Positions 45,854 through 52,885 of a DNA stretch of 52,885 bases are shown piece by piece. Positions within the stretch are counted from its first letter, which is position 1. Every line of letters starts with the position of its first letter. Source of the stretch: an uncultured Bacteroidales bacterium (lineage in GTDB: Bacteria > Bacteroidota > Bacteroidia > Bacteroidales > Muribaculaceae); the NCBI GenBank assembly GCA_902787185.1, contig CADAFP010000046.1, positions 1-52,885 of the forward strand, in the 5' to 3' direction. The notes under the pieces were generated by a model. The model was not told the DNA's origin. It ran no database searches and worked only from the letters and a program-made list of their open reading frames with translations. Position numbers and translations under genes: made by a program.

Positions 45854-47002
45854 ATGAAAAACTCAAATAATAATGATTGGTCATGTGACCACGGCAACAA
45901 CTGTCAGCCCGGCAACCTGCTGGAGATGATCTCTAAGCAAGAGCAGCCCAGCTACGATGAGCAGCCCAGCTATAAAAAGCTGCCCAACTACGATGAGCTG
46001 TTGGAGAACGAGTACCAAGAAAGGGTGGGGAAGTTCTTTATTAACCGCAACGGCAACTATCCCGACCCCGAGTACCTCATCGAGATTGGCGGTGTTCCCA
46101 CGGTGCCCAAGAGCAACCTGGTGGCCATCAGTGCCAAGTGGAAAAGCGGCAAGACCTTCTTTTGCGACATCCTTGCTGCCGTCTTCCTGGGTAGCGACCA
46201 TTTCGCCAGTTGCCGCAGCCTTCAGGATTCAGGCAAGGTCCTGTTCTTTGATACCGAGCAGGCCGAGAGCGACACCTTCCGCCTCCAGAAGATTATTGAT
46301 TCGATGACCCCCGAGGAGCGCCACAATGACCTTGGGGTGGCATGCCTGCAGGGAGCGGTTATTGCTGCCGATGAGAACCGCAGCGATGAAGTCTCCCGCT
46401 ATGAACTCATCACCAGCGCCATCGCTCACGAACACCCCGACCTGGTCATCATCGACGGTATCGCCGACCTCATCTACAACTACAACGACGTGTTTGAATC
46501 GACTAACATGGTCAACAAGCTGTCAGCCTTAGCCAACAAGCACAACTGCTGCATCGTCGTGGTCATGCACCAGAACAAGGGGATGAAAGACAAGAACATG
46601 AAGGGGCACATCGGAACCATGCTCTGCCAGAAGTGCAGCGACGTGTTCAATGTCGAGAAGCATGGCACCATCTTTGAGGTGACTCATGCCTATACCAGGC
46701 ACCGCCAGAGCGCGGGCCTGTGCTTCAAACTCGACGCCAATGCCGTTCCCATGGACGCCATCGCCGACCGACAACTGCAAGTCGAGATAGAGCGCCAGCA
46801 GGAAAAATCCAAGCTGCGTGACCAGTTGGCATTGTGTGTGGAGGATGCTGACGCCGACATCAAGAAGAGCGAACTGGTCAAACTCATCAAGGAAAAGCTG
46901 GGGCACAGCCAAGCCCAAGCCTATCGTTTGTTAGAGAAGGCCGAGAGGCTTAATGTGCTGGCTACCAACGACAAGAAGCACTACCACTTGCAGCAGGAAT
47001 AG
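45854..47002 (+). CDS. RepA-like RecA-fold ATPase (AAA_25 type)
   Basis: A 382-residue soluble protein. The N-terminal 60 residues are low complexity with near repeats (QPSYDEQPSYKKLPNYDELL). Residues 75-280 form a RecA/RepA-helicase-like ATPase: VAISAKWKSGKTFFCDILAA is the Walker A region, LFFDTEQAESDTFRLQK follows, and PDLVIIDGIADLI is Walker B, then IVVVMHQNKGMKDK. A C-terminal winged-helix-like part (ADIKKSELVKLIKEKLGHSQ, AYRLLEKAERLNVL) may bind DNA. Such proteins are common in Bacteroidales mobile elements as replication or mobilisation helicases. Directly downstream lies a cluster of heptamer repeats that could be its binding site. Confidence 0.8.
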   Translation: MKNSNNNDWSCDHGNNCQPGNLLEMISKQEQPSYDEQPSYKKLPNYDELLENEYQERVGKFFINRNGNYPDPEYLIEIGGVPTVPKSNLVAISAKWKSGKTFFCDILAAVFLGSDHFASCRSLQDSGKVLFFDTEQAESDTFRLQKIIDSMTPEERHNDLGVACLQGAVIAADENRSDEVSRYELITSAIAHEHPDLVIIDGIADLIYNYNDVFESTNMVNKLSALANKHNCCIVVVMHQNKGMKDKNMKGHIGTMLCQKCSDVFNVEKHGTIFEVTHAYTRHRQSAGLCFKLDANAVPMDAIADRQLQVEIERQQEKSKLRDQLALCVEDADADIKKSELVKLIKEKLGHSQAQAYRLLEKAERLNVLATNDKKHYHLQQE

Positions 47003-47014
47003 TGATTATCATAT

Positions 47015-47270
47015 TTCTCATTTTTCTCATTTCTATATATATATGAGAAGAATGAGAAATATATTTAGATAGATAAGGCATGTCATCGCAAGTATTGACA
47101 TGACTATGATTATCTCATGCTGTCCTGCCTATAACGACGGTAACCGTAAGGTATCTGTTGTTTATCTTTTTCTCATTCTTCTCACTCTTCTCATGTGTGC
47201 GTGATTTTCTCAAATCAGAATCCTCTATTGAGAAAACACGTGCCCATGAGAACTATGAGAAAAATGATAA
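47015..47270. repeat. Iteron-like TTCTCAT heptamers with 9-base period
   Basis: Forward TTCTCAT copies start at 47015 and 47024, answered by ATGAGAA at 47043 and 47052. A second set has TTCTCAT, TTCTCAC and TTCTCAT at 47170, 47179 and 47188 and TTCTCAA at 47207, answered by TTGAGAA at 47228 and ATGAGAA, ATGAGAA and ATGATAA at 47246, 47255 and 47264. Spacing inside each group is exactly 9 bases and the groups nest as inverted repeats. The layout resembles iterons or operators for a multimeric protein, or long hairpins in RNA. Confidence 0.85.
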
Positions 47271-47327: not shown

Positions 47328-47335
47328 TACCTTTG
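47328..47335 (+). promoter_or_regulatory. -7 promoter box TACCTTTG of the structured RNA
   Basis: TACCTTTG fits TAnnTTTG exactly as in the rRNA and glyS promoters of this window. A transcript would begin near 47341 with GGAATCGGG. Confidence 0.65.
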
Positions 47336-47340
47336 TGGGT

Positions 47341-47588
47341 GGAATCGGGGGAGAAATCCCGATGAAGATTTAAGCATTCGCTATTATTTCGCGCATAGCC
47401 AAGAGCCTAGGAAACAATTGGTATAACAAGCACCGAAATAATAAGTGACGGTAGCCTTATGGTTTCTGTTCCAGTTTAAAATAGCGATGCTCACGCAACG
47501 CGTGATGCATCCTGCAAACTGGACAGGGGTACCATTCCTAGGCCGCCTCTTGCTATGCGCAAAAAAGGTGCATCACGTCTTTTTTGCG
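47341..47588 (+). ncRNA. Candidate structured RNA upstream of the methyltransferase gene
   Basis: The RNA would open with a hairpin ATCGGG (47344-47349) / CCCGAT (47358-47363). A long-range stem joins GCGCATAG, CAAGAG and CCTAGGAA (47391-47413) to TTCCTAGG, CTCTTG and CTATGCGC (47535-47560), with TGGTA/TACCA inside. Within it, CTGT-CCAGTTT (47466-47477) pairs with AAACTGG-ACAG (47516-47526), capped by GATGCTCACGC / GCGTGATGCATC. TATTATTTCG (47382) can pair with CGAAATAATA (47434), and GCATTCGCTATT with AATAGCGATGC (47480), as competing folds. CGCAAAAAA / TTTTTTGCG (47558-47588) ends it like a terminator. I recognise no known family; retron, omega-RNA and 6S RNA were considered. Confidence 0.6.
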
Positions 47589-47596
47589 TTTAAGCG

Positions 47597-47634
47597 TGAT
47601 TGATAGTCGATGCAAACCAATTGATTATCAATCA
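47597..47634 (+). promoter_or_regulatory. Inverted repeat over the methyltransferase start
   Basis: TGATTGATA at 47597-47605 is the exact reverse complement of TATCAATCA at 47626-47634, which ends on the first base of the ATG. It could be an operator for a regulator or an RNA hairpin that hides the start codon. Confidence 0.5.
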
Positions 47635-48725
47635 TGGCCAATAAAAACCTGAATGCCGCCAAGACGGCAAAGAAAGACGAGTTTTACACGCAAATGAGCG
47701 ACATCGAGCGGGAGTTGCAGCACTACTGGCAGCACTTTCGTGGAAAAACCATCCTGTGCAACTGCGACGACCCCTACGAGAGCAATTTCTTTAAATACTT
47801 TGCCCTGCGCTTCAACCAGTTGGGGCTAAAGAAACTCATCTGCACCTGCTATAACGGCTCACCTGTGCAAGGCAATGAATTGATGATTGATTGGGGCGAT
47901 TTTACAGAGGAACCCAAGAAAATCGCATATAAGGTTGAGATTACCGAGGTGCGTGACCTGAACGGCGACGGAGCCGTTGACCTGAGCGACGTGCAATACC
48001 TGCTGAAAAACGACAAAAACGTCCTTTCCATCCTCAAAACGGGCGACTTCCGCAGTTCTGAATGTATCGAACTGCTTAAACAAGCCGACATCGTTGTGAC
48101 TAACCCACCATTCTCACTATTTCGTGAATATGTTGCCCAACTCATAGAATATGGAAAGAAATTTCTGATTATCGGCAATGTAAATGCAATATCCAACAAA
48201 AACTTTTTCCCATTGCTATACACTGGAAAAGTATGGAATGGAGTTAATTCCGGTCATACATGGTTTAAAGTTCCGGAATACTACGAAATACCTGATTTCT
48301 ATGATTTGACAGATACTAAAAAACTTCGCTCAAATGGTTATGCGATTAAAGATGGACGGTTATGGAGGAATTTGGGTAATATATGCTGGTTTACTAACCT
48401 TGACAATAAGAAACGACATGAATTCATTGATTTGATTCGTAGTGTCAAACATACTGAGTATTGTGAATATGATAACTACCAAGCTATTGAGGTTGGTAAT
48501 GTTAATGAAATTCCATATGATTATGATGGAATTATGGGCGTGCCAATTACTTTCATGCATAAATACAATCCAGATCAATTTGAATTACTTGGAATTACAG
48601 AAAATGATCCCAAAATGAAAGAGTATTGGAAAGATGGTGCATTAAGATATGATAGACCATATTTGAAAGGTCAAAGAAAACCAGCAAGATTATTAATCCG
48701 CAACAAACATCCTAAGACGCTATGA
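47634..48725 (+). CDS. Adenine-specific DNA methyltransferase, EcoRI family
   Basis: A 363-residue enzyme expected to methylate adenine in a short DNA site using S-adenosylmethionine. Near the N-terminus KKDEFYTQMSDIERELQHYW and LCNCDDPYESNF are typical of the family (I recall PF13651); the catalytic motif NPPF is at residues 157-160 in ADIVVTNPPFSLFREYV. Residues 108-120 (DLNGDGAVDLSDV) look like half of an EF-hand or dockerin loop; this insertion is, to my memory, common in the family. From about 48120 to 48720 the gene turns AT-rich, about one third GC in lines I counted against about half before and after, so the target-recognition half may have been swapped. Its stop overlaps the next start in ATGA. 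Confidence 0.88.
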   Translation: MANKNLNAAKTAKKDEFYTQMSDIERELQHYWQHFRGKTILCNCDDPYESNFFKYFALRFNQLGLKKLICTCYNGSPVQGNELMIDWGDFTEEPKKIAYKVEITEVRDLNGDGAVDLSDVQYLLKNDKNVLSILKTGDFRSSECIELLKQADIVVTNPPFSLFREYVAQLIEYGKKFLIIGNVNAISNKNFFPLLYTGKVWNGVNSGHTWFKVPEYYEIPDFYDLTDTKKLRSNGYAIKDGRLWRNLGNICWFTNLDNKKRHEFIDLIRSVKHTEYCEYDNYQAIEVGNVNEIPYDYDGIMGVPITFMHKYNPDQFELLGITENDPKMKEYWKDGALRYDRPYLKGQRKPARLLIRNKHPKTL

Positions 48726-49846
48726 TGACGATAAAACCAATCAGTGTGACCGTGAGGGAGATTACCCAGGGTTATGTGAATAACGATGAACAGGGCGTGA
48801 GGGGCTATAACGGGTTGTTAGACATCCGTCCGCCCTATCAGCGCGAGTTTATCTATAACGACAAGGAGCAACAAGCTGTCATCAACACGGTGCTGCGCGG
48901 CTATCCGCTCAACGTGATGTATTGGGTGAAGCGCAACGAGGATGCGGAGTGCCCTTATGAGGTGATGGACGGCCAGCAGCGCACGTTGGCACTGTGTGAG
49001 TATGTGGCGGGTAAATTCAGTATTGAGTTCAAGAACTTCTTCAACCAGCCCGAAGATATCCAAAAACGCATCCTGGACTACGAGTTGACGGTATATGTGT
49101 GCGAGGGCGAGCACAGCGAAAAGTTAGAGTGGTTCAAGACCATCAACATCGCGGGCAAACCGCTCAACGAGCAGGAAATCCTCAATGCCATCTATGCGGG
49201 GCCGTTTGTGAGCGATGCCAAGCGGCATTTCTCAAAAACCAACTGCGGTGCCTCTAAACTCGGCAAAGACCTTGTGAACGGAGTGCCTATCCGCCAGGAC
49301 TTCTTGAAAGTTGCGCTGGAGTGGATGGCCGACCACGAGAAGCGAGAGGGCAAGGCACAAAGCCGTGTGGGCTACATGTCACAGCACCAGCACGACCCCA
49401 ACGCCAACAACCTGTGGACCTATTTCCAGAACGTGCTGAATTGGGCGATTACCAACTTTGACATGAAGAAGTTCAAGCGCATCATGAAGGGGTTGGACTG
49501 GGCGCTCTATTACGATAAATTCCATGATAAGACCCTCGACACGGTGGAGATGGCCAAGCAGATTTCAGTATTGATGCGTGACAGCGAAATCCAGCGGCAG
49601 TCGGGAATCATCCCCTACGTGCTCACGGGCGACGAGCGGCACCTTGACCTGCGTGCCTTTCCCGAAGACATCAAACTGGCGGTATGGGAAAAGCAAAAGC
49701 ACATCTGCCCCCTGTGCAACAAGGAGTTTGACTTTGAGTTTATGGAGGGTGATCATATCAAGCCGTGGCGTGAGGGCGGCCGCACCGTTATCGAGAACTG
49801 CCAGATGTTGTGCCGCGACTGCAACCGTCACAAGGGTGCAAAGTGA
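48722..49846 (+). CDS. DUF262 / HNH endonuclease protein
   Basis: A 374-residue protein. Residues 15-150 are a DUF262 (ParB/Srx-like) domain: DIRPPYQREFIYNDKEQQAV, NTVLRGYPLNVMYWVKR and the DGQQR motif in YEVMDGQQRTLALCEYV. DUF262 occurs in GmrS-like type IV restriction subunits and many defence proteins, where it binds or splits nucleotides. Residues 325-374 are an HNH nuclease with two zinc-type Cys pairs: ICPLCNKEF, DHIKPWREGGRTVIENCQML and CRDCNRHKG. The start overlaps the methyltransferase stop by 4 bases, so translation is coupled. Together they fit a restriction-modification or DNA-targeting defence pair, this being the cutting half. It may be methylation-sensitive. Confidence 0.87.
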   Translation: MMTIKPISVTVREITQGYVNNDEQGVRGYNGLLDIRPPYQREFIYNDKEQQAVINTVLRGYPLNVMYWVKRNEDAECPYEVMDGQQRTLALCEYVAGKFSIEFKNFFNQPEDIQKRILDYELTVYVCEGEHSEKLEWFKTINIAGKPLNEQEILNAIYAGPFVSDAKRHFSKTNCGASKLGKDLVNGVPIRQDFLKVALEWMADHEKREGKAQSRVGYMSQHQHDPNANNLWTYFQNVLNWAITNFDMKKFKRIMKGLDWALYYDKFHDKTLDTVEMAKQISVLMRDSEIQRQSGIIPYVLTGDERHLDLRAFPEDIKLAVWEKQKHICPLCNKEFDFEFMEGDHIKPWREGGRTVIENCQMLCRDCNRHKGAK

Positions 49847-52803: not shown

Positions 52804-52885
52804 ACAACGAAGAGTTTGATCCTGGCTCAGGATGAACGCTAGCGACAGGCTTAACACATGCAAGTCGAGGGGCAGCGCGAGGGTA
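52804..52885 (+). rRNA. rrs: 16S ribosomal RNA, 5' end
   Basis: The conserved AGAGTTTGATCCTGGCTCAG primer region starts at 52811, followed by GATGAACGCTAGCGACAGGC and TTAACACATGCAAGTCGAGG. Aligned with the E. coli numbering the mature end is near 52804; the gene continues beyond the right edge. The AGCGACAGGC and GAGGGGCAGC words suggest Muribaculaceae rather than Prevotella or Bacteroides. Confidence 0.97.

Follow-up and report, generated by a model that had tools for sequence, protein, structure and literature searches.

A structured leader-RNA class in front of restriction-modification and surface genes of Bacteroidales

In a 52,885-nucleotide contig of an uncultured Bacteroidales bacterium (CADAFP010000046.1; the whole stretch is called the window here), a methyltransferase gene and a nuclease gene are preceded by DNA that an earlier note took for a structured RNA, either switching read-through into the two genes or working with their proteins. 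What is this RNA, how far does it reach, and does it belong to the restriction system at all? Computational analysis demonstrates the RNA and its helices, places it directly before a start codon and shows it again ahead of many genes for defence and for the cell surface; the RNA probably controls how much protein the downstream genes make. The reading favoured here, with slightly better than even confidence, is that the window holds one copy of a large family of Bacteroidales leader RNAs, acting in cis as a translational switch in which a closing helix, P0, competes with a hairpin at the start codon.

Extent and fold of the RNA

The region 47341–47588 is predicted to fold at -91.9 kcal/mol, compared with a mean of -64.2 kcal/mol for shuffled sequences (z -5.92), and none of 200 shuffles equalled it. 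This fold and the lack of an Rfam 15 match bear out the suggestion of a structured RNA without earlier description. The stems first named are found in the window sequence, as are two competing pairings, of TATTATTTCG with CGAAATAATA and of GCATTCGCTATT with a middle strand, AATAGCGATGC; both partners can be seen in most of the listed sequences of class A, the window's type among the two classes of RNA that occupy the same place in 76 loci of methyltransferase relatives. The idea of mutually exclusive pairings is supported. Best supported of all is a further pairing of the 5' element, its third, with GATAGTCGATGC immediately ahead of the ATG. The right-hand boundary had been placed at 47588, which is too short because conserved structure continues to the start codon at 47634. 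The final CGCAAAAAA/TTTTTTGCG hairpin is present; it is no ordinary GC-rich terminator, and its A/U run is variable in relatives.

P0 joins the 5' element to a strand 5' of the ATG, closing the RNA domain. Helices P1, P2, P3, P6 and P7 all lie inside it, and a pseudoknot crosses P2 and P3 (Table 1).

Table 1. Features of the RNA and of the operon behind it, in window coordinates
Feature	Position	Strand	Basis
Promoter box TACCTTTG	47328–47335	+	Sequence; box upstream in 67/74 leaders
5' hairpin ATCGGG/CCCGAT	47344–47363	+	Fold and class A comparison; in a subset of class A only
P0 5' strand GCATTCGCTATTA, nearly invariant 5' element	47374–47386	+	Leader comparison
TATTATTTCG, alternative partner of 47434–47443	47382–47391	+	Sequence, relatives
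P1 5' strand	47392–47398	+	Covariation, score 134.0 (null maximum 63.7)
P2 5' strand CCTAGGAA	47406–47413	+	Covariation, score 111.6
P3 5' strand TGGTA	47419–47423	+	Covariation, score 107.2
CGAAATAATA, alternative partner of 5' element	47434–47443	+	Sequence, relatives
P6 5' strand CCAGTTT	47471–47477 (3' strand 47516–47522)	+	Covariation, score 78.6; 63% paired, gappy region
P7 hairpin GATGC.CACGC/GCGTG.GCATC	47486–47511	+	Sequence; 5' arm can also pair with 5' element
Pseudoknot 5' strand AGGGG	47525–47529 (partner 47546–47550)	+	Covariation, score 69.6; 94% paired
P3 3' strand TACCA	47530–47534	+	Covariation
P2 3' strand TTCCTAGG	47535–47542	+	Covariation
Pseudoknot 3' strand CCTCT	47546–47550	+	Covariation
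P1 3' strand	47553–47559	+	Covariation
Terminal hairpin CGCAAAAAAGG..CTTTTTTGCG	47558–47588	+	Fold; bases in common with P1; variable in relatives
P0 3' strand TGATAGTCGATGC	47601–47613	+	Duplex of -23.5 kcal/mol with 5' element; partner swaps
Start-codon hairpin GATTGATAGTC/GATTATCAATC	47598–47633	+	-20.6 kcal/mol, z -7.6; 5' arm in common with P0
EcoRI-type adenine methyltransferase gene	47634–48725	+	PF13651, E 1.3e-136
GmrSD_N and HNH nuclease gene	48722–49846	+	PF03235, PF01844; PADLOC REase_II

Homologues show covariation at the inner helices and the pseudoknot beyond a tree-aware null, in which substitutions were redistributed along a FastTree tree with branch and column rates kept. Support comes from helix-level scores; the single-pair signal is thin, with two pairs at E < 0.05 in class A and three in class B. 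In class A (38 sequences) the five-pair runs of P1, P2, P3, P6 and the pseudoknot lie above all 100 simulations. Three class B helices (25 sequences) score 119.6, 101.2 and 52.1 against a null maximum of 49.3; one of them crosses P1. Two non-complementary column runs (32% and 45% paired) likewise reach E 0.01, so the null is imperfect. P0 and the start-codon hairpin scarcely vary within a class and are outside this scoring.

The same core can be followed across the family. An alignment of 74 RNAs from in front of many different genes, made with MAFFT without structure and set against 60 null simulations (maximum 107.0), put the P1/P2 region at 442.9, 431.1 and 259.6 and a pseudoknot-type GGGT/ACCT pairing, the counterpart of AGGGG/CCTCT in the window, at 115.6. 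In the proposed pairs G-U far exceeds A-C (279:42 within classes, 155:34 family-wide), and a sense-strand RNA is therefore indicated; a structure in the DNA rather than the RNA was downgraded on this excess.

Relatives of the RNA and the genes behind them

A DNA search found the RNA in 27 of 397 genomes of the window's family. The methyltransferase gene lies behind it in 26 of the 30 loci listed (L008–L037); L018 and L032 are cut by contig ends, while L019 and L036 have other genes. In L019 a class A copy precedes an acyltransferase gene. In L036 the core is well kept and the next gene is about 310 nt away; this class A copy, in genome G187, has no gene close behind and lies about 10 kb from a second copy on the same contig. 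Four more matches (L117–L120) all have the methyltransferase behind the RNA. Model R2 detects class A in 32 of 101 genomes of the window's genus, where the methyltransferase follows in 29 of the 30 loci listed; two exceptions are known, and the thirtieth locus (L236) lies at a contig end and shows the first residues of the methyltransferase followed by a changed frame. Plasmid and phage collections gave no match, and the one methyltransferase locus from IMG/VR (L114) lacks the 5' element in a motif search. That search finds the element in 76 of 91 distinct leaders; the 15 others include distant methyltransferases, cut contigs and a class B leader with a late start (L099).

Class B is diverged from class A but related to it, as a single iterated profile picks up the two. 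Since model R1, described below, misses class A except for L060, and R2 detects R1-type RNAs weakly, it is nhmmer and shared anatomy that connect the classes.

The placing of the RNA as leader of the methyltransferase–nuclease operon is supported. The promoter box TACCTTTG, which we take to be of the Bacteroidetes -7 type, was confirmed, and TAnnTTTG is conserved upstream in relatives. In the 110 nt ahead of the 5' element it occurs in 45 of 49 class A or class A-like leaders and 22 of 25 class B leaders (3.2 and 1.3 expected from shuffling), or 67 of 74 against 4.5 expected, a count that depends on the stretch scanned, a shorter one giving 0 of 32. Between the 5' element and the gene it is found in none of 76 leaders (7.9 expected). 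With a box upstream and none inside, the RNA seems to open the operon's own transcript as its 5' leader. Scanned within 70 nt, 10 of 40 loci from across the order have the box.

The family extends well beyond the methyltransferase. With a class B query, 7 of the family's 397 genomes gave a match: one methyltransferase-type locus and six from other genera, in which, among those read, the RNA precedes a PAP2 phosphatase gene. R1, a covariance model built from class B and PAP2-type leaders, has hits at E <= 0.01 in 108 of 393 genomes of the order, and weak matches in 12 of 296 genomes of a phylum sample. Copies per genome are lower bounds, as at most 5 (order), 7 (phylum) and 19 (genus, R2) candidates were scored. 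Weak R1 matches outside the order, in the same taxonomic class (L198–L212), carry the core motif before secreted and other genes.

Seventy R1 loci were read and 41 were taken into a list of downstream genes, a split made with the downstream proteins already known. Left out were 24 loci that are mostly AT-rich, weak-scoring or have another 5' element, and that by eye stand mostly before secreted or unknown proteins, together with near duplicates (L138, L141, L149, L160) and a contig-end locus (L133). PADLOC defence models (E <= 1e-5) match 27 of 40 of the listed proteins (L155 excluded; 10/10, 8/10, 5/10 and 4/10 by batch), compared with 0 of 10 other genes, all from this window; as the leaders used to train R1 came from EcoRI-type methyltransferase and PAP2 genes, the model's best hits may lean to such neighbours. 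The matches include type I, IIG, II (N6 and C5) and III methyltransferases, a DarT protein and an HKD-Snf2 helicase. Among those that no model matched are several unknowns, a dynamin-like GTPase (L177), an acyltransferase (L144), an MBOAT protein (L137) and a PAP2 enzyme (L156).

A second, AT-rich group has the same core with GCGTTAGCTTTTATTC or GTTTTTGCTTAT at its 5' end and lies mostly before secreted proteins (L178, L179, L184, L188, L189, L191, L192, L194, L197 and others). In this group the stretch preceding the U run has its complement in a strand lower down.

How the RNA may act

The downstream proteins have no common domain. This makes a cis-acting leader more probable than an RNA that partners the restriction proteins, and a dedicated RNA–protein machine is unlikely; cis control by the leader is likely. 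Covariation and a fixed place before a gene, as expected of a structured cis-regulatory leader, are both found, the place and the promoter being read from sequence.

The elements of P0 differ between the classes. The 5' element is GCATTCGCTATTA in class A and GCGTTTGCTGTTA in class B, and its 3' partner is GATAGTCGATGC in the window and GATAAGCAATACGC in class B. Over 75 leaders the duplex averages -21.0 kcal/mol for a leader's own pair and -12.4 and -13.9 kcal/mol for swaps between A and B. In a mixed set of 39 leaders the values are -18.5 (own) and -14.3 kcal/mol (swapped), with none of 10,000 partner permutations as good; the elements are so conserved that the own partner is the single best in only 5 of the 39. 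The truncated L089 was left out of these counts, and L099, missed by the motif search, was found by the profile. In the 40 order-level loci P0 reaches -17.1 kcal/mol, compared with -10.6 for shuffled partners.

In class A a hairpin ending at the ATG is present in 48 of 48 leaders (median -13.4 kcal/mol, median z -3.65), and its 5' arm is the P0 3' strand, so that P0 and the hairpin cannot coexist. The layout is the same in class B, with a weak hairpin (z -0.5), and in 22 of 25 leaders the last stem takes in the ATG. Among the 40 order-level members the hairpin is hardly stronger than in shuffles (-6.3 against -5.1), a set that includes L129 and L137, whose assumed start codons look wrong because they fall within the RNA. 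Alternative structures at the start codon are thus clear in class A, weak in class B and no rule in the order-level set; as a general mechanism the start-codon hairpin was downgraded on its near-shuffle level there. Against the favoured reading also stand L036, which has no standard target nearby, and L019, which has a different one.

For the window's class, a start-codon switch is likely on this comparison of leaders. Transcription would start immediately downstream of 47335, and a pseudoknotted domain of ~240 nt would lie in the ~290 nt at the head of the operon mRNA, closed by P0, whose 3' strand ends 20 nt before the methyltransferase ATG. We infer that the RNA acts in cis on the gene behind it. 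When P0 forms, its 3' strand would be barred from the start-codon hairpin and translation could begin; when the 5' element is paired inside the domain instead, the P0 3' strand would be free to form the hairpin ending at the ATG, and translation would be blocked. The balance might be tipped by a metabolite or a protein, by a phage signal or by how fast transcription runs.

More tentatively, the copies may form a multicopy RNA class that reads a common signal and sets an RNA-controlled defence regulon in Bacteroidales. The signal might then be an infecting phage, arrival in a new host or a DNA-modification cofactor, and the leaders might adjust restriction-modification and other anti-phage genes together with surface-modifying acyltransferases and phosphatases. 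If true, phage defence in Bacteroidales, major bacteria of the gut and rumen, would have a common layer of RNA control, because the leader is found ahead of restriction systems of types I, II, IIG and III and also of surface genes whose products may alter phage receptors. The covariance model finds candidate defence operons, and the proposed switch is concrete enough to probe.

The main rival, close to the read-through switch of the earlier note, is a transcription attenuator, in which a U-rich 3' hairpin would end transcription unless an alternative fold formed, hiding of the start codon being secondary. The terminal hairpin and P1 have bases in common, a hairpin and U run lie at a similar place in many relatives, and a family-wide GTGG/CCAC pairing (a P4-type hairpin arm with the strand that leads into the U run) shows 99% complementarity, at E 0.55. 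In the window, however, the U run lies within the stem with no GC-rich stem ahead of it, and such runs vary; an attenuator is rather unlikely. Start-codon hiding fits the window's class better than a read-through switch, and is not evident in every relative.

Alternatively, the domain could be cut out or terminated and act away from its gene, either as a small RNA or together with a shared RNA-binding protein. Several copies per genome, a closed and stable domain and the L036 core, kept without a close target gene, would suit such a trans-acting RNA; it is nevertheless unlikely, as the longer reading frame behind the RNA is on the same strand in 68 of 68 loci (by a crude test of frame length), and the median distance between RNA start and start codon is 229 nt over the 40 order-level loci.

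That the RNA is a partner or guide of the methyltransferase–nuclease pair is quite improbable. The 29 of 30 linkage in the window's genus speaks for it, and RNA distance weakly tracks the nuclease (rho 0.30 over 57 loci; partial 0.13, 0 of 500 permutations), as it does the N-terminal half of the methyltransferase (rho 0.28). The same RNA core, however, stands before many unrelated genes whose proteins have no common domains, and RNA distance is unrelated to the variable half of the methyltransferase (rho 0.03, 57 loci), so that the RNA carries no target specificity; the earlier suggestion that it is tied to this restriction system and works with its proteins is not supported. A guide RNA was rejected on the same lack of correlation and because no stretch is hypervariable among close copies, by eye. 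A DNA element, such as a recombination site gathering defence genes, is barely plausible: one element does precede many different defence genes, with several matches near contig ends, but the excess of G-U over A-C on the sense strand and the conserved promoter box upstream argue against it.

Known systems and the restriction locus

No Rfam 15 family reaches its gathering score over the window RNA, weak matches lying far below, and a scan of 40 relative loci gave no match over the RNA; membership of an Rfam 15 family was rejected on both. Two hits fell elsewhere, at L192:1793–1940 and L067:5665–5778, the latter a SAM-I/IV riboswitch above gathering score, on the minus strand near a class B operon. 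The RNA is thus a structured leader class new to Rfam, with its best-scoring members mostly before defence genes. It resembles riboswitches and other structured mRNA leaders in being a large conserved 5' leader with a pseudoknot, with mutually exclusive helices at the start codon and with several kinds of gene behind it; it differs in lacking an Rfam 15 match and in its neighbours, which are mostly restriction-modification, other defence and surface genes. HEARO or omega RNA before IscB is likewise a structured RNA directly before a gene, and the HNH nuclease of the window is weakly IscB-like. The HEARO model, presumably part of the Rfam library scanned, gave no match in the window, and the neighbours of the RNA family differ, with no common HNH nuclease. 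A retron would have a reverse transcriptase beside its RNA, and none was found among the five neighbouring proteins scanned.

Restriction-modification operons are controlled by C proteins, antisense transcripts and methyltransferase autoregulation, and host safety, in which the methyltransferase is made before the nuclease, is known mainly from protein regulators. Expression of a methyltransferase and a nuclease is at stake here too, but under a conserved leader common to several restriction types. Nothing of this kind was found in the open-licence literature searched. FopS of Bacteroides, in the parts of its description consulted, is also a multicopy RNA family, of Bacteroidaceae; it is a small RNA acting in trans to repress mRNAs of SusC-like transporters, whereas the window RNA is a leader of the next gene (PMC11697453). 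None of the Bacteroidetes motifs with Rfam numbers in the consulted part of a 2010 survey matched the window RNA; its Bacteroides-2 and GUCCY-hairpin motifs carry no Rfam number there and so fall outside this comparison (PMC2864571).

Behind the RNA, an EcoRI-type methylase and a nuclease make up a predicted type II restriction-modification system. Across EcoRI-type operons the C-terminal half of the methyltransferase is hypervariable, in contrast to the conserved N-terminal half and the nuclease, which is conserved throughout (77 and 67 sequences); as type I systems do, the nuclease may therefore rely on the methyltransferase for its DNA target. Residues ~105–127 of the window methyltransferase, DLNGDGAVDLSDVQYLL, within the conserved N-terminal half, make up a dockerin/EF-hand-like stretch. 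Ahead of the RNA lies a gene for an AAA_25 (RepA-like) ATPase (45854–47002), perhaps part of an integrated element. Upstream of the promoter there are TTCTCAT/ATGAGAA repeats (47010–47260) and a palindrome, ACGGTAACCGT (47137–47147). The window ends, at 52804–52885, in the start of a 16S rRNA gene.
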